Source: Pseudogemmobacter hezensis (lineage in GTDB: Bacteria > Pseudomonadota > Alphaproteobacteria > Rhodobacterales > Rhodobacteraceae). Taken from it: a stretch of 64,000 bases of DNA. Below the pieces are notes generated by a model. It was given only the letters and a program-made list of their open reading frames with translations. It had not been told where the DNA came from and made no database searches. Positions 6,734 through 63,051 of the stretch are shown in pieces. Where the stretch lies: NCBI RefSeq assembly GCF_013155295.1, contig NZ_JABJXT010000013.1, positions 62,001 to 126,000 of the forward strand, read 5' to 3'. The translations under genes and the position numbers were made by a program. Position 1 is the first letter of the stretch; the number at the start of each line of letters is the position of its first letter.

Positions 6734-7948
6734 ATGCCGAAGCGTGAAATGGCGGGAAAACGGAAGATATTCGCGGCGGCGGCTCTGGCGGTTTTGCCAG
6801 CGGCGCTGGGCCCGCAAAGCGCTTTGGCAGAAGGTGTGGCAGAGGGCGTGGCCGGGGATGTGGCTGCGGGCCGGATTGACACCTCAGCCGGGGTGATGGT
6901 GGTTGAGAAAGTCGCAGAGGGCCTTGATGGCCCCTGGGGCTTTGCCTTCCTGCCCGATGGCAGCATCCTGATCACCGAGCGTAAGGGCCATATGTGGCGG
7001 GCAATGCCCGTGCCGGGGGCGCTGGCGGACAAGCAGCCGGTGACCCATCTGCCAGAGGTGGTTGCCCTGGGCCAGGGCGGGCTTTTGGATGTGATGGTGC
7101 CCGCCGATCACGCCCAGAGCGGCCTGGTCTGGATGACCTGGAGCGCCCCTTCCGATGACGGCCCCCGAACCATGCTGGGCCATGGGCTTTTTGACGAGGC
7201 AAGCAATCATTTTTCAATCATCACCTCGGTTTTCGGGGGCGAATCGATGGTGGCGACGCGTCACTACGGCTCTCGCATCGTGGAAAATCCGGGCGATAAG
7301 GGGCGGGTCTTCGTGACGCTTGGCGACCGCGGCACCGGGCCTGCGGGGCTTGAGGCCCAGGATCCACGCCTCACTGTCGGCAAGGTCGTCTATATTGAGG
7401 CTGACGGCAGGCCCGCGATTTCCCAGGACGGGGCAGAGCCTGGCGTCTATTCCATCGGGCACCGGAATATCCAGGGCGCGGCCCTGCGCGAGGATGGGGC
7501 GCTTTTGATTTCCGAACATGGCGCGAAGGGCGGGGATGAGATCAACCTGATCCGCCCCGGCGCCAATTACGGCTGGCCGGTGATCTCTTACGGCGTCAAT
7601 TACAACGGCACAAAGATCGGCAGCGGCACCCATCAGGATGGGATGGAGCAGCCGCTGCATTACTGGGATCCCTCAATCGCGCCCTCGGGTCTGATGATCT
7701 ATTCCGGGGCGCTGGTGCCCGAATGGAAGGGCGATGTTTTCGCAGGCTCGCTGAACAGTGATTTCATCTCGCGCCTTGACCCGGACACGCCCGCAGCCAC
7801 CGGATGGGCCGAAGAGCGTATCGCCTCGGATGCGACAGGGCGGGTGCGCGATGTCAGAGAGGGGCCGGATGGCGCGATCTGGTTCCTGTCGGAAACCGAA
7901 GGGGCGCTTTACCGGATGCGCCCTGCCGGGGACGGGCTGGCGGAATAG
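6734..7948 (+). CDS. PQQ-dependent sugar dehydrogenase (glucose/sorbosone dehydrogenase family)
   Basis: A 404-residue predicted periplasmic beta-propeller enzyme. The signal peptide runs to about residue 33 (ALA before EG). The mature protein has the family blocks GLDGPWGFAFLPDGSILITER, SIGHRNIQGAA, SEHGAKGGDEINLI and GANYGWPVISYG; the H and R residues in GHRN and the HG in SEHG are the conserved ligands of this family. Soluble PQQ aldose dehydrogenases oxidise sugars in the periplasm. The ATG at 6734 was preferred over a GTG at 6686 because it has an AGGGGG ribosome site and starts the basic part of the signal peptide. It faces away from the liv operon and is convergent with tyrS. Confidence 0.85.
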   Translation: MPKREMAGKRKIFAAAALAVLPAALGPQSALAEGVAEGVAGDVAAGRIDTSAGVMVVEKVAEGLDGPWGFAFLPDGSILITERKGHMWRAMPVPGALADKQPVTHLPEVVALGQGGLLDVMVPADHAQSGLVWMTWSAPSDDGPRTMLGHGLFDEASNHFSIITSVFGGESMVATRHYGSRIVENPGDKGRVFVTLGDRGTGPAGLEAQDPRLTVGKVVYIEADGRPAISQDGAEPGVYSIGHRNIQGAALREDGALLISEHGAKGGDEINLIRPGANYGWPVISYGVNYNGTKIGSGTHQDGMEQPLHYWDPSIAPSGLMIYSGALVPEWKGDVFAGSLNSDFISRLDPDTPAATGWAEERIASDATGRVRDVREGPDGAIWFLSETEGALYRMRPAGDGLAE

Positions 7949-57752: not shown

Positions 57753-58452
57753 CCGGGGAGGAAGGTATCGCCATGAAACTGGCTCGGTTCAGGGCCGCTG
57801 GCGAGGGGGCAGGTCGATAAGACCGTTCAGGATGGCCGGCGCCAGCTCTGGCAGACAGTGCCGGTCTTTGCTGGTCTGGCGGGACTGAACAGCTGGCCGG
57901 ATGAGCATCCTGTTCGTCTTTGGCATAAGACGCCACACGGCACCTTGCCGGGCACGATTGCCGATATATTGAAGGCAGAGAAAGAAGCGCTGATAACGCT
58001 TCCGCCGATATTCGATGGGTTCATCGAGCATGGCAAGCACGTCTCCCTGAGGCGCGGCTAAATCAGCACCCTACCAGGTGTTCATCAAACGACATGAAGT
58101 CCTGCGCCCCAGAGAAGAAGCCCTCGACAAGGCGCGTCAGAACGCAGGGCCCCATCGTGATCCCGGGCATCACGCCAGACTTACCGTCGATTTTGACCGT
58201 GACCGGGGCAGTGCCGGGGTCAGATGCGGCGCTCAGGGCATGATATTCAGGAATACGTAGCAATTTCAACTATCTCCAGCGATGCAGCCCGTCGGAAGCG
58301 GGCGTTACAAACTCCATACTGACGAGGCGCGAAAAATTCGGTCGCATCAGTGGCGACTACCTCGCCCTGACCGGCAGATATGCCAGCTGGGCGGGCACGT
58401 CCAAATCTGTCGCATGCCACCCTTACCTCTCTGTCAACCGATGGAGAGCCGC
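57753..58452. other. About 700 bases without a recognisable gene, before the AAA-WYL-nuclease operon
   Basis: Open frames on the minus strand (57789-58040 and 58063-58269) have protein-like stretches such as DEPIEYRRKRYQRFFLCLQ and LVEGFFSGAQDFMSFDE, but no ribosome sites or family matches that I can support. Base use differs from the transporter operon. I read it as decayed accessory sequence and the likely left edge of an insertion that brought the following operon. The promoter of the operon should lie in 58250-58440. Confidence 0.5.
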
Positions 58453-60456
58453 ATGAGCTTTGAGCACTATCTGACCCTTGACCTGATCGCCCGTCTTGCA
58501 GGCCGTTTCGGACCTGCAAGCCGCGTGGCCAGGGAACTGCCCGGCTGGCTGGAGTATCTGACCGAGATCGAATGTCCCGAGCGGCCGCGCACACGGCCCG
58601 GTGCGGTCTGGTGGGAGAAGATCCGTCAGATCAGCCGCAATCTGGTGCCGAAATCCGGCGGTGGTGAGGGCGATATCCTGAACCGGAACTGCGCCATTCT
58701 CGGCGCGCATTTCGGCCTCTCGGAGGTTGAAGCCGGTATCCTGACCTTCGTCGGGCATTATAAAGTGTTCGACGGGTTCGAACATGTGGTCGATGGTGCG
58801 CTCGACACGAAAGAAGTCACGGTTCCGCTGTTGCTTTCGTGGTTCTGCAAAGCGGCGGAGCCAGAGATCCGCGCGGCCCTGCGGCCTTCGGGCCGGCTCA
58901 TTTTGTCCGGGCTGGTTCAGCGCAATCGCCCGGGGCGTCATAACCGCATGCCCTTCGATCTGTCCGACAGGCTGCTGGCTGCCCTTATGGCGGATGTTGG
59001 GGGCGTCAGCGATCTGATCGGCCTGATGTTCCCCGTGGCGCCCGCCCCTGAGGCCGAATGGCAGGATTTTGAGGGGCTGGGCAAAGATGCCGGGATCATG
59101 CGTGACCTGATCGTCCAGGCAATGGCCATGCGGGAAAAGGGGGTGAACATCCTGCTCTATGGCCCGCCCGGCACCGGCAAGACCGAATTCGCGAAAGTGC
59201 TGGCACATGATATCGGCGCAGAGCTGCGGGCTGTGGGCGAGACCGATGATGAGGGCGGCGAACCCTCGCGCCGCGAACGTCTGGCCGAGATGGGCATGGC
59301 CTGCCGCATGCTTGCCGAACGCCGCGACACGATCCTGCTGTTCGACGAAATGGAGGATCTGTTCGGGGCCGCGAACCCGTTCTTCGGCAATGATCGGCCG
59401 TCCAAGGTCCATACCAACCGGATGCTGGAGAGCAATCCGATCCCGGTGATCTGGACCACGAACTCGGTGGAAAGCTGCGATCCCGCCTTCCTGCGCCGGA
59501 TGAGCTATTCGGCGCTGATGCGGCCCCCTTCCGGCCGGGTGCGGTCGCGGATCTGGCAGCGGCTGGAGGCCCGGCATGGGGTGGGGATCACGGCTACCAG
59601 CCTGCCGGATCTGGCAGAGCGGCACGATCAGGCCCCGGCGCTGGTTTCGGATGCGATGCGCGTCGCCCGGCTGTGCGAGGGCGGTGCGCAAATGGTCAGC
59701 ACGGTGCTGGACGCCGCGGTCCGGCTGGCGAAGGGCGGCGTGGATGCACCGCCGCGCCACCATTCCGAAGTGCCGTGGCAGTCGGAACTGGCCAATGCCG
59801 ATATGGACCTGGCGCTGATCGGGGCGCGGCTTGCGGCCCCGGATGCACCGAGGCGGGTCAGCTTCTGCCTCGACGGCCCTGCAGGCACCGGGAAAAGCGC
59901 CTGGGCACGGCATCTGGCGCGACAGATCGGCATGCCGGTGGTCGAGAAACGCGCCTCGGACCTGATCTCGAAATGGCTGGGCGAGAGCGAGCAGAACATC
60001 GCCCGCGCCTTTGCCGAGGCGCGGGCCGAGGGGGCACTTCTGATCTTCGACGAGGCCGACAGTCTGCTCGCAGATCGCCGTAACGCCGAACACAGTTGGG
60101 AGGTGTCCCAGGTGAATGAAATGCTGACCTGGATGGAAAGCCACCCGCTGCCCTTCGTCTGCACCACCAATCTGGTGGAAAAGCTCGACCCGGCAACGCA
60201 GCGGCGCTTCACCTTCCGCATCCGTTTCGACACCCTCTCGGATGCGCAGATGGAGGCGGCCTGGCGCGCGCATTTCGATGCGGCACCGCCTGAGGGCCTC
60301 ACGCGGCTTGAACGACTGGCGCCGGGTGATTTCGCCAGTGTCGCCCGCCGGATGCAGGCGATGGGCGAGACGCGGCCCGCGCAGATCCTGCATGAACTGA
60401 CCCGCGAAGCTGCCGCGAAAGAGGGGGCATCGCGCCCGATCGGCTTTGGCCGTTGA
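58453..60456 (+). CDS. Tandem AAA+ ATPase of a putative three-gene defence operon
   Basis: A 667-residue cytoplasmic protein. Residues 1-200 are of no recognised family. Two AAA+ modules follow: module 1 with Walker A GPPGTGKT (237-244), Walker B LLFDEMED (D298 E299) and sensor TTNSVE; module 2 with Walker A GPAGTGKS (475-482), Walker B LIFDEADS (D533 E534) and a sensor and Arg-rich TTNLVEKLDPATQRRF block as in CDC48/FtsH-like unfoldases. No protease domain or transmembrane segment. ATG 58453 was chosen because GGAGAG lies just before it. A WYL regulator starts 49 bases downstream. It may act as a motor or sensor for the nuclease-like third protein; this is inference. Confidence 0.85.
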   Translation: MSFEHYLTLDLIARLAGRFGPASRVARELPGWLEYLTEIECPERPRTRPGAVWWEKIRQISRNLVPKSGGGEGDILNRNCAILGAHFGLSEVEAGILTFVGHYKVFDGFEHVVDGALDTKEVTVPLLLSWFCKAAEPEIRAALRPSGRLILSGLVQRNRPGRHNRMPFDLSDRLLAALMADVGGVSDLIGLMFPVAPAPEAEWQDFEGLGKDAGIMRDLIVQAMAMREKGVNILLYGPPGTGKTEFAKVLAHDIGAELRAVGETDDEGGEPSRRERLAEMGMACRMLAERRDTILLFDEMEDLFGAANPFFGNDRPSKVHTNRMLESNPIPVIWTTNSVESCDPAFLRRMSYSALMRPPSGRVRSRIWQRLEARHGVGITATSLPDLAERHDQAPALVSDAMRVARLCEGGAQMVSTVLDAAVRLAKGGVDAPPRHHSEVPWQSELANADMDLALIGARLAAPDAPRRVSFCLDGPAGTGKSAWARHLARQIGMPVVEKRASDLISKWLGESEQNIARAFAEARAEGALLIFDEADSLLADRRNAEHSWEVSQVNEMLTWMESHPLPFVCTTNLVEKLDPATQRRFTFRIRFDTLSDAQMEAAWRAHFDAAPPEGLTRLERLAPGDFASVARRMQAMGETRPAQILHELTREAAAKEGASRPIGFGR

Positions 60457-60505
60457 CGCCGCCAGGCCGCGCCGCGAAGGTGGCGCGGTATTGCCCGGAG
60501 GCCCC

Positions 60506-61453
60506 ATGCGCTACGCCCGTCAGGAAGATCTGTTGATGCTCGCCGTGAAGATGCAGGGATCGGCTGACGGAATGTGTCTTGCCGATATCGAGCGGGAGTT
60601 CGGCGTCTCGCGCCGCACGGCAGAGCGCATGCGCGACGCCGTCAGCCGCGCCTATCCGCAGATCGAGGAAATCCCGGGCGATGGCGGTCGCAAATACTGG
60701 CGCTTTCCGCCGGGCGCATTGGGGCGGATGGTCGAGCCCACTCTTGACGAACTGACCGCAGGCCACCGGGCCGCAGCCATCACGCGGCGCGAAGGCGATA
60801 TTACGACCGCCGAGACGCTGGAAAGGTTGCTTACAAAAGTGCAGGCCATGTTTCGCGCGGATCGCCGCCGGATGATTGCGGCGGATCTTGAGGCGCAGCT
60901 CATGGCCGATGGCGTCGCCTTCCGCCCCGGCCCACGAGAGAACATCGCGCCCGGGATTCTGTCAGCCCTGCGCGAGGCGATCCTTGCCGGCGTCATGGTA
61001 TCGAGCGACCACCGTTCCCGCCGCACCGGCAAGCTGTCGCGCAACACGCGCCTTGGCCCCATCGCCATGCTGTTCGGCCAGGGGCGGCAATACCTGCTGG
61101 CCTGGAGCGAATATCAGGACGACTTGCGGCTGTTTGCCCTTGCGGGATTTGAAAAGGTTGCGCTGGAGGCCGACAGCTATGCCCGTCCGGAAGACTTCGA
61201 TTTGCAGGACTGGCTGTCAGAGAGCTTCGGCATCTGGCGCGAAGAGCCGCAGGATGTCGAGTGGCGCTTTCACCCCGATGTGGCGGAGGAGGCTGCAGGA
61301 TATGTGTTCCATCCGAAGCAAAGGATAGAACGGCTGGGGGACGGGTCTTTGGTGGTGCGGTTCAGAGCCGGCGGGCAGCAGGAAATGGAATGGTATCTCG
61401 CCCGATGGGGAGATAGGGTTGAGGTGAAATTTTTTAATGGAGGCGAGAGATGA
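60506..61453 (+). CDS. WYL-domain transcriptional regulator
   Basis: A 315-residue protein with an N-terminal helix-turn-helix (LADIEREFGVSRRTAERMRD, about residues 25-44) and a WYL-type ligand domain (about 150-230, with QYLLAWSEYQDDLRLFAL in place of the WYL core), then a WCX-like C-terminal domain (about 240-315). The ribosome site CGGAGG fixes ATG 60506. WYL regulators are frequently encoded with phage-defence genes (for example BrxR and CapW) and are thought to sense nucleotides or nucleic acid. It sits between the ATPase and the nuclease-like gene, whose start overlaps its stop. Confidence 0.9.
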   Translation: MRYARQEDLLMLAVKMQGSADGMCLADIEREFGVSRRTAERMRDAVSRAYPQIEEIPGDGGRKYWRFPPGALGRMVEPTLDELTAGHRAAAITRREGDITTAETLERLLTKVQAMFRADRRRMIAADLEAQLMADGVAFRPGPRENIAPGILSALREAILAGVMVSSDHRSRRTGKLSRNTRLGPIAMLFGQGRQYLLAWSEYQDDLRLFALAGFEKVALEADSYARPEDFDLQDWLSESFGIWREEPQDVEWRFHPDVAEEAAGYVFHPKQRIERLGDGSLVVRFRAGGQQEMEWYLARWGDRVEVKFFNGGER

Positions 61454-62139
61454 GTTTCGAGAGAGATGTTAATAATTTTCCAGAAGACTGGCGGGGAATA
61501 GTGAAAAAATGGGCAAGTCTTAATATTGGATATTATGATCGCCATTCCGACCTCCCTGCGTGGTATGTCGAAAACTCCAACTCGGCACTTTTCGCCGCTG
61601 CGGCCTGGGCAGAGGGCCATTATGCGCTTTGCGAGGTTGATGTAGAAAAGAAATATTATACTGGACGGGCGGGGCGGCCTGCATCCTATGCCGGAAGAAT
61701 GGATATTGAACTGACAATTGGTGAGGAGGTTTATTGGATCGAGGCCAAGCGCCGTGCATTCTCTTTGGGTGAAGAATCGAATTACTCGTTTCGCCATTCA
61801 TTTATGAATGCATCCGTGGAAGAGGCATATGCCAATGCGCGACAATGTAGGCCAGCCGCAAGAGATATGGGTGCAAAGGTGGCGTCTCTGGTATTCTTTT
61901 CGGGCCATATCGAGCCCGACATGGCCGAGCGCGGAGCAGGCGCCACCCCCCGATTGCGAGAGCAACTGATAGCGAGTGAGGTTGCGGCACTGAGGCATAA
62001 GATGAGAGAACTCTCTGACAAAATGAACGGAAGAGTATTTCACGCGATATTCAGTCAGCGCGACTGCAGGATCTATGCAAACTGGCAAGGTTATTATTGG
62101 CCTGCGGCATTTGGTGTTGCCGCTGTTATCGACGATTGA
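61450..62139 (+). CDS. Putative PD-(D/E)xK-type nuclease, third gene of the operon
   Basis: A 229-residue protein of no family I can name. Asp85 (in RMDIELTI) and Glu98-Ala-Lys100 (in VYWIEAKRR) form D-x12-E-x-K, the core of PD-(D/E)xK nucleases, preceded by a hydrophobic strand and followed by helices. Other parts are polar with several Tyr and Trp. Its ATG overlaps the WYL stop (ATGA), so it is translated as part of the operon. The gene is clearly lower in GC than its neighbours (for example AATAATTTTCCAG near its start), a sign of transfer. A nuclease acting with the tandem ATPase is the attractive reading but is not proven. Confidence 0.65.
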   Translation: MSFERDVNNFPEDWRGIVKKWASLNIGYYDRHSDLPAWYVENSNSALFAAAAWAEGHYALCEVDVEKKYYTGRAGRPASYAGRMDIELTIGEEVYWIEAKRRAFSLGEESNYSFRHSFMNASVEEAYANARQCRPAARDMGAKVASLVFFSGHIEPDMAERGAGATPRLREQLIASEVAALRHKMRELSDKMNGRVFHAIFSQRDCRIYANWQGYYWPAAFGVAAVIDD

Positions 62140-62429
62140 AGTAATCTCTACTGCCGGCATCCGTCCGTATTTGGCGTATTGACCGGCCATCCTGCCCCAA
62201 ACCACCTGACCTGCCCCCCGGTCGTCCCTCGGTCTGGTTCAGAGTGATGCCACACGGCCGGTCATGGACGATGAGCCCTACGCATTCTCGGGCCTGCTTC
62301 TGGCGCTTCTCTGTCCATCCGGGCAAAGATCATCTTGCCTAATGCTTTGAAATCATAACCATCCTCGTTACAGTTTTCCTGATCAGCAGATTGTGGGCCA
62401 TTCATGCATTACCCCTTTCTCGTCAGTGA
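62140..62429. other. About 290 bases with no gene seen, after the operon
   Basis: No hairpin with a T run and no supported gene. A minus-strand frame (62126-62326) has no ribosome site or family match. Probably the right edge of the inserted operon. Confidence 0.45.
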
Positions 62430-63051
62430 TCCACGTTCCGGCTTGCAATATCGCTGACCGATACCAGCCTGGCGGACCTGACCCTCGCGCCCATGGCCAC
62501 TGAATGGGCGCCGGGGCTCGCCATTGCCGAGGCGCCTGACCCGGTCTGGGCGGAAAGCCTTGCCAATGCGCCGGTTGAGACGATCTCGGCGGTGACAATG
62601 GCGCTGATGGATCTGATATTGGCCACGCCGGATCTGAAAGTGCCGAGCGTTGATCACCTGCCCGAGAGCCGCGTCAGGCGGCATTTCCTGGCGCTGGTCG
62701 GGCTGTGGCAAAGGCCGGGGGATGCGCTGCCAGCTTGCCCGGGCCTTTGCCGCCTAGGGCGTGGCCCTGTCGGGCCTGCCGGGCCATTTGCCCGAGCGTG
62801 ATGTCATTGGCGGGACCGCGCTGCACCTGGCGCGGTCCAGGCGCCCGCCGACCCCGGCGATGGTTCTGGCGCGCCTCTCGCTTTCACCGCTGATGCCCTG
62901 GTCCGCCCAGACTGGTCGTGATCGGACCGAGCGCGATCTGGCCGAAAGCCTGATGGGCGGCGATTTCCGGGGCACCATCCTTACTGCCACGCCCGCGCAT
63001 AAAGACCTGTGGCACGATGCCCGGCAGCTACAAACGCGGCATGCAAACTGA
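62430..63051 (+). pseudogene. Broken gene of unknown family
   Basis: Two frames read as one protein. From about 62430 (in-frame TGA just before) the first frame gives SLADLTLAPMATEWAPGLA and continues to about 62718 (HFLALVGLWQRPGDA). A frameshift then leads to MRCQLARAFAA, a TAG at 62755-62757, and GVALSGLPGHLPERDVIGG through to TGA at 63049-63051. The start, one frame junction and one amber codon are defects. I do not recognise the family. Confidence 0.5.

Follow-up and report, generated by a model that had tools for sequence, protein, structure and literature searches.

A stretch of 64,000 nucleotides from Pseudogemmobacter hezensis (contig NZ_JABJXT010000013.1, positions 62,001–126,000, forward strand; hereafter the window) contains three adjoining genes, for a tandem AAA+ ATPase (AAA2), a WYL-domain regulator (WYL) and a predicted nuclease (NUC3). 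With roughly even confidence, we read this trio as the kept 5′ half of a larger, Azaca-like predicted anti-phage operon. The order of that operon is AAA2, WYL, an exchangeable slot, an AddB-like protein and UvrD, followed in some loci by a hypothetical protein, a PLD-like protein and an SNF2 helicase. The locus is best read as a Cdc48-like module under WYL control into which an exchangeable effector is embedded, and its role in defence is predicted from sequence.

Fourteen close loci in which the position after WYL is visible were compared: the window, L013–L018, L047, L048, L056, L057 and L110–L112. L016 and L109 are one contig and were counted once. L058, whose contig is too short to show the slot, and genome G100, with AAA2 pieces on different contigs, were left out. 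Genes in the compared loci were mostly called with a simple open reading frame (ORF) script, not a gene finder. AAA2 and WYL were constant in all 14 loci, and the next gene varied. It encoded a dual-specificity phosphatase fused to an ADP-ribosylglycohydrolase (DSP-ARG) in nine (L013, L015, L016, L018, L047, L048, L056, L057 and L111), NUC3 in three (the window, L017 and L110), one of them truncated, and a PDDEXK_4 nuclease accompanied by a second protein of ~200 residues in two (L014 and L112). In L013 and L047, DSP-ARG was followed by a protein annotated as HEPN, a name that a Pfam scan did not confirm.

The borders of the exchange were sharp. The window and L013, from Pseudogemmobacter faecipullorum, were 89.6% identical over 58077–61426, ending in the last WYL codons, and identity returned at 62404, the AddB start codon. 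Among 12 WYL 3′ junctions compared, loci with different cargo diverged past the conserved WYL end, whereas DSP-ARG loci were alike beyond it. L110 and L111 were sisters on the AAA2 tree (support 100/100, end branches ~0.01), yet one carries NUC3 and the other DSP-ARG. The guanine-plus-cytosine (GC) content of NUC3 and of the L014 cargo was 0.46–0.50, compared with 0.60–0.64 for their sources; that of the L013 DSP-ARG, at 0.647, was not low. The third position has thus been exchanged between relatives, and the slot runs from WYL codon ~307 to the AddB start.

A first-pass annotation, made from the letters alone, had described three tightly packed genes with decayed sequence on both sides and had proposed them as one undescribed defence system. 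The genes are real, with all three ORFs (58453–60456, 60506–61453 and 61450–62139) open and intact, a gap of 49 bases between AAA2 and WYL, and an ATGA overlap between WYL and NUC3. The decayed flanks can now be named, as the remnant of a small divergent gene upstream and AddB-like remnants downstream. The trio as a conserved system was not borne out: AAA2–WYL is constant, the third gene is variable, and intact relatives have five to nine genes. A conserved stand-alone trio is ruled out by the variable third gene in the close loci. The three genes do rarely occur together, with NUC3 in 3/14, but AAA2 and WYL do not follow this pattern, and every one of the four NUC3 members found adjoins AAA2 or WYL. 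The features of the locus are as follows.

58078–58254, minus strand: small divergent gene, remnant (tblastn 55% over 60 residues, E 1e-17); the gene has 127 amino acids in L018 and ~121 in L015.
58393–58417, plus strand: candidate operator, a near-palindromic element whose centre lies 48 bp ahead of the AAA2 start (47–49 bp in close loci).
58453–60456, plus strand: AAA2, Cdc48-like tandem AAA+ ATPase, 667 amino acids (Pfam AAA, Protein Data Bank (PDB) profile matches, model, Foldseek).
60506–61453, plus strand: WYL–WCX regulator, 315 amino acids (Pfam matches to both domains above cut-off); loci with other cargo are homologous up to about codon 307 (61426).
61427–62403, plus strand: exchangeable slot, from the WYL 3′ end to the AddB start, without nucleotide homology to L013 and with homology on both sides.
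61450–62139, plus strand: NUC3, predicted PD-(D/E)xK nuclease and slot cargo, 229 amino acids (D85, E98 and K100 kept in 4/4 members; model topology).
62157–62181, plus strand: near-palindromic element, second copy (matrix score 24.7; exact pattern match).
62213–62344, plus strand: stand-alone AAA2 N-domain paralogue, remnant (198 amino acids in L014; tblastn 53% over 47 residues, E 4e-11).
62404–63024, plus strand: AddB-like pseudogene pieces covering residues 1–17, 14–110 and 238–330 of 848, disrupted by frame changes, a stop and an internal deletion.

Both Walker A (237–244 and 475–482) and Walker B (295–302 and 530–537) were kept in the two modules of AAA2, which upheld the double AAA+ reading. 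Paired arginines were present in each module (348/349 and 584/585), and a pore-loop motif, KWLGESE, was found at 507–513 in the second ring. The AlphaFold2 model, built from a 13-row alignment, had a predicted local distance difference test score (pLDDT) of 84.6 and a predicted template modelling score (pTM) of 0.61. Foldseek matched it to Cdc48, p97, Rix7 and NVL with E ~2e-17, with template modelling scores (TM-scores) by query length of 0.26–0.45 among the 50 matches listed. The AAA2 family profile also retrieved Cdc48-type PDB chains by sequence. Two AAA+ modules, intact Walker A and B motifs and a second-ring aromatic pore loop make AAA2 Cdc48/p97-like, and the two modules and the second-ring motif are common to it and the tandem AAA+ unfoldases Cdc48/p97, Rix7 and NVL. 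AAA2 differs from them in having another N-domain, in its low TM-scores and in its first ring, where no aromatic pore loop was read in our reading of the alignment. Residues 1–200 were mostly helical in the model, with a weak winged-helix match (PF22977, E 4.8e-4) below the cut-off. In genome G011, tandem or paired AAA2 genes (L059:2104–5522 and L060:1689–9525, both minus strand) had NUC3-like, DSP-ARG and HEPN-like genes beside them.

AAA2 relatives were found in 7/244 genomes of the order at E 1e-30, 10/394 of the family at E 1e-100 and 41/398 of the phylum at E 1e-40, the own genome being counted each time. Among 53 AAA2-positive genomes, a WYL gene lay at most 8 kb from AAA2 in 14/14 from the same family, 0/6 from the rest of the class and 10/33 from the rest of the phylum, and at most 1.5 kb away in 12/14, 0/6 and 4/33, respectively; these counts pool matches from searches with unequal E-value limits, and neighbours may be missed on short contigs. 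The background in same-family genomes was 2.5 WYL matches per genome. In the same family, the proximity of AAA2 and WYL is more than chance.

The WYL protein scored above the Pfam cut-offs for WYL (33.7 bits against 21.8) and WCX (38.6 against 23.9). For an N-terminal helix-turn-helix, HTH_23 gave E 0.26 in the window and 0.0035 in the L047 relative, both below the cut-off. An upstream TTG start in the 49-base gap was rejected; its frame is open, but the added residues vary between loci, and GGAGG precedes the ATG. Passages of PMC4012209 and PMC9122601 present WYL domains as sensors of ligands or nucleic acids and as regulators of defence, and those of the latter report that WYL domains in other proteins bind single-stranded DNA or RNA.

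The ratio of nonsynonymous to synonymous substitution rates (dN/dS) of AAA2 was 0.06–0.08 between the window and L013 (two methods) and 0.10–0.12 between L013 and L047, and that of WYL was 0.08–0.10 between L013 and L047. Both genes are under purifying selection, with values of 0.06–0.16 against the P. faecipullorum copy. The first AddB piece gave 0.21–0.38 between the window and L013; the second contains a stop and gave no value, and for NUC3 dS was not estimable. In three close relatives AAA2 was split or frameshifted (L048:15001–17004, L017:8001–10002 and L018:2836–4831), indicating that AAA2 is often broken or that the assemblies contain errors.

A near-palindromic element of 25 bp, with a consensus close to TACGTCC-N5-TGACGCAT and self-complementary only at zero offset, was centred 47–49 bp before AAA2 in the close loci. 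A matrix built from 15 AAA2 sites was scanned over 54 loci (1.07 Mb), with ten column-permuted matrices as the control. At scores of at least 16, 18 and 20, it found 40, 37 and 30 sites, compared with means of 3.0, 1.7 and 0.6 for the permuted matrices; the 40 include the 15 training sites, and some loci nearly duplicate each other (one site is common to L048, L110 and L111). Twenty of the 40 were before AAA2 (including the 15 training sites), one was before a WYL gene and two were 178–234 bp before AddB. Seven preceded DSP-ARG, six of them at 52–56 bp and one at 76. Three were before the small divergent gene (42–46 bp), one was before the stand-alone N-domain gene (48 bp), and six preceded no gene labelled in the scan. 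Five of the nine close DSP-ARG loci had a site scoring at least 16, three had a weaker one at the same place (13.1–14.2), and L056 had none. The exact pattern matched twice in the window against 0.15 expected. We take the palindrome as a candidate operator, with WYL as its probable binder. Copies before no labelled gene (L060:13288–13348, L112:10433–10457, L057:13201–13225 and L015:7266–7290) possibly mark further cargo genes.

The small divergent gene lies upstream of AAA2 on the minus strand in L018 (2292–2675), L015 (7456–7821) and, near 7490–7810, in L014 and L013, with its own palindrome in L014, L015 and L018. The stand-alone N-domain gene of L014 (12424–13020, plus strand) has its own palindrome at 48 bp and a remnant in the window. 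Near AAA2, a dual-specificity phosphatase and an unrelated inositol monophosphatase are each fused to ADP-ribosylglycohydrolase (L048:18074–19642, plus strand; L050:18919–20856, minus strand); the two fusions hint that the substrate is an ADP-ribose phosphate. The same parts recur in a second arrangement, in which WYL is found with HEPN-like genes and a TM0106 RecB-like nuclease (L048:3186–8714, L061 and L113), joined in L061 and L113 by AAA2.

An AddB-like PDDEXK_1 nuclease and a UvrD helicase followed the slot in 11/14 close loci, with AddB frameshifted in L017. The exceptions were the window, L110 and L112, in the stretch read. Six of the 11 showed at least 2 kb beyond UvrD, and four of these six (L047, L048, L016/L109 and L111) had the hypothetical/PLD-like/SNF2 helicase set; L056 and L057 did not. 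Behind NUC3 in the window there were the second palindrome, the remnant of the AAA2 N-domain paralogue and the AddB pieces. UvrD, hypothetical, PLD-like and SNF2 queries gave no match in the 15 kb beyond the window, and the related hypothetical, PLD and SNF2 proteins of L048 gave no tblastn match in the window or those 15 kb. UvrD and SNF2, the two distal proteins searched genome-wide, were also not found in the own genome, in searches without a positive control. The window is a truncated copy, since AddB is a remnant and the remaining distal genes were not found.

This truncation bears on a rival reading, that the window copy is a decaying relic in which, after the loss of AddB, UvrD and the later genes, AAA2, WYL and NUC3 are functionless and merely unbroken so far. 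We consider it unlikely. In its favour, the trio is surrounded by AddB, small-gene and N-domain remnants, AddB is likewise absent from the stretches read of L110 and L112, and L017, L018 and L048 have a split or frameshifted AAA2. The three frames of the window are, however, intact, and the dN/dS of its AAA2 and WYL is below that of the first AddB piece, though these values include the history before the loss.

The motif D85-x12-E98-A-K100, noticed in the first pass, was present in NUC3 with that spacing, and the low GC content noticed with it was confirmed (0.503 against 0.636 for the window). Only 6/6331 sliding windows of 690 bp were lower in GC; the lowest starts at ~61411 and overlaps NUC3. 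Four NUC3 members were found: the window protein, L017 (58% identical), L110 (78% over 105 residues, then cut off) and the distant L059. All four keep the D and E-x-K residues of PD-(D/E)xK enzymes. The active site of the L059 protein came out in the wrong place in two alignments (A1 and A2), and hhalign gave the right register; the model was therefore built from a two-row alignment (A3) and had pLDDT 62.7 and pTM 0.69. Its order was helix, three strands, helix and strand, with D85 on the second strand and E98 and K100 on the third. As to the suggested nuclease fold, helix and strand order and the motif residues fit the PD-(D/E)xK core, but the model confidence is low and Foldseek gave no match at E ≤0.001, so that the nuclease reading rests on motif and topology. 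We call NUC3 a predicted PD-(D/E)xK nuclease. No family in Pfam, PADLOC or NCBIfam matched it above cut-off; DUF5324 from Pfam was rejected at E 0.027, below the cut-off.

NUC3 is rare. Counting the own genome, it was found in 2/292 genomes of the order at E 0.001 and in 3/289 of the class at E 0.01, where the other two matches were very weak (E 0.006 and 0.00996). Spread by mobile elements was considered and set aside, with no match in sequenced plasmids or phages and no confirmed relative in viral contigs. In the window and L110, NUC3 begins within the ATGA that also ends WYL and lacks a palindrome of its own; in L017 the two genes are 45 bases apart. It is distinctly unlikely that NUC3 is an independent single-gene defence nuclease in a permissive operon site, needing neither AAA2 nor WYL. 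Such independence would suit the low GC content and the clean slot exchange, and embedded defence genes are known, for example DarTG2 in a type I restriction system (passages of PMC12255303). Yet all four NUC3 members adjoin AAA2 or WYL, two of them have the ATGA overlap, and the DSP-ARG cargo bears the same palindrome as AAA2. As for NUC3 as a toxin restrained by AAA2 and WYL in a toxin–antitoxin-like pair, this is hardly probable at all: the ATGA overlap in the window and L110 suggests coupled expression, but AAA2–WYL persist with DSP-ARG in 9/14 loci and so are not specific to NUC3.

The reading as an embedded effector in a predicted anti-phage operon was then compared with known systems. 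Neither PADLOC nor NCBIfam gave a usefully scoring match of the trio to a named system, as had been supposed, and defence-type neighbours were present in relatives. Azaca is reportedly a three-gene system, attributed to Millman et al. in 2022. In L098, WYL, AddB and UvrD directly precede ZacA, ZacB and ZacC (PADLOC E 1.5e-118, 8.6e-165 and 3.2e-189). L097 and L099 have the same WYL–AddB–UvrD order, with ZacA and ZacB 64–69% identical; as far as read, L097–L099 lack AAA2. A Druantia DruE-like gene lies upstream of this set in L097. The hypothetical/PLD-like/helicase order is alike in Azaca and AAA2 loci, but the AAA2-locus hypothetical protein could not be aligned with ZacA by profile comparison and was not taken for ZacA, and the PLD-like protein aligned only locally with ZacB. 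Among the distal proteins there was no ZacA match, a ZacB match of 4e-9 over a short stretch in L048, and hhalign probabilities of 0.1 and 4.8. PADLOC found no ZacA, ZacB or ZacC in the window trio, which places the window outside Azaca itself. By analogy of its hypothetical/PLD-like/SNF2 set, the AAA2 locus may work like Azaca. A passage of PMC10952713 lists Azaca under the PLD-like domain.

In Rhodoferax, AAA2, DUF2779 and WYL precede PDC-M27A, B and C, a PADLOC candidate system, with no AddB or UvrD between; the SNF2 helicase of L048 matched PDC-M27C weakly (8e-22). No paper under the name PDC-M27 was found in the openly licensed PubMed Central literature. IetAS pairs an ATPase with an adjacent subtilisin-like protease, IetS. 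The second AAA domain of AAA2 resembles IetA (PADLOC E 3.8e-30), but AAA2 scored 95.3 bits against the cut-off of 510 for the NCBIfam anti-phage ATPase, and the trio has no protease family, so that IetAS was rightly set apart at first pass. The search for a protease covered the trio and nine flanking ORFs at E 1e-5, not every flanking ORF, and found none. Passages of PMC12255303 describe DarTG2 within a type I restriction system in the RptR island, one defence set inside another with a dedicated repressor; the principle is that of the AAA2 slot, and the host operon, regulator and cargo are unrelated. No description of the AAA2–WYL locus was found in passages of the papers on YprA/ARMADA (PMC12458937) or BREX (PMC12839542), and none of AAA2–WYL–slot–AddB–UvrD in the openly licensed PubMed Central literature as judged by title, abstract or passages.

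The AddB/UvrD composition would also suit a role in stress or in the repair of DNA damage, with an AddAB-like helicase-nuclease controlled by a WYL protein that responds to damage; PMC10693628 and PMC9122601, the latter naming DriD, describe WYL regulators of DNA-damage responses. We regard this reading as highly unlikely in view of the patchy spread (7/244 genomes of the order), the plasmid copies, among them an intact locus in Fuscovulum blasticum, the exchangeable cargo, and the presence of ZacABC or PDC-M27 genes within these operons in relatives.

Several observations weigh against an anti-phage operon kept as its 5′ half. Outside the family, AAA2 often has no WYL within 8 kb (6/6 in the class set and 23/33 in the phylum set), which means that the tie to this locus does not hold for the ATPase family at large. 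The NUC3 model was weak and without a Foldseek match. The strict palindrome pattern matched three times in the own genome, not above the reversed control (four); two of the three matches are in the AAA2–WYL locus, and only this clustering stands out. The dN/dS of WYL was somewhat higher between the window and L013, at 0.14–0.16, than between L013 and L047 (0.08–0.10). The window copy has no intact AddB, UvrD or later genes, and the NUC3-bearing L110 also lacks AddB in the stretch read and has its NUC3 cut. The first-pass reading of the trio as AAA+ protein, WYL regulator and predicted nuclease is supported.

From sequence, we propose how the locus might protect against phage. The WYL protein, on the palindrome, would repress the operon and let go on sensing a nucleic acid that signals infection or DNA damage. 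AAA2 would assemble into a hexamer like that of Cdc48 and thread a protein through the second ring, remodelling or releasing the effector or its target. The slot protein would be the effector, here NUC3 as a metal-dependent nuclease cutting phage or cell DNA. The trio of the window would do this with no help from AddB and UvrD.

Only tentatively, AAA2, WYL and the palindrome may be seen as a portable control module, an unfoldase with a ligand-sensing repressor, whose effector is interchangeable among a nuclease, a phosphatase/ADP-ribosylglycohydrolase and a HEPN-type protein. The window trio would then be a working minimal version without AddB and UvrD, and an effector swap would re-arm the same sensor. 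The AAA2 ATPases, a bacterial Cdc48-like family that has received little study, are linked here with regulation by WYL, with machinery of the AddAB and Azaca kinds and with a site of effector exchange. The palindrome offers a testable candidate repressor–operator pair and a handle for finding more cargo genes.

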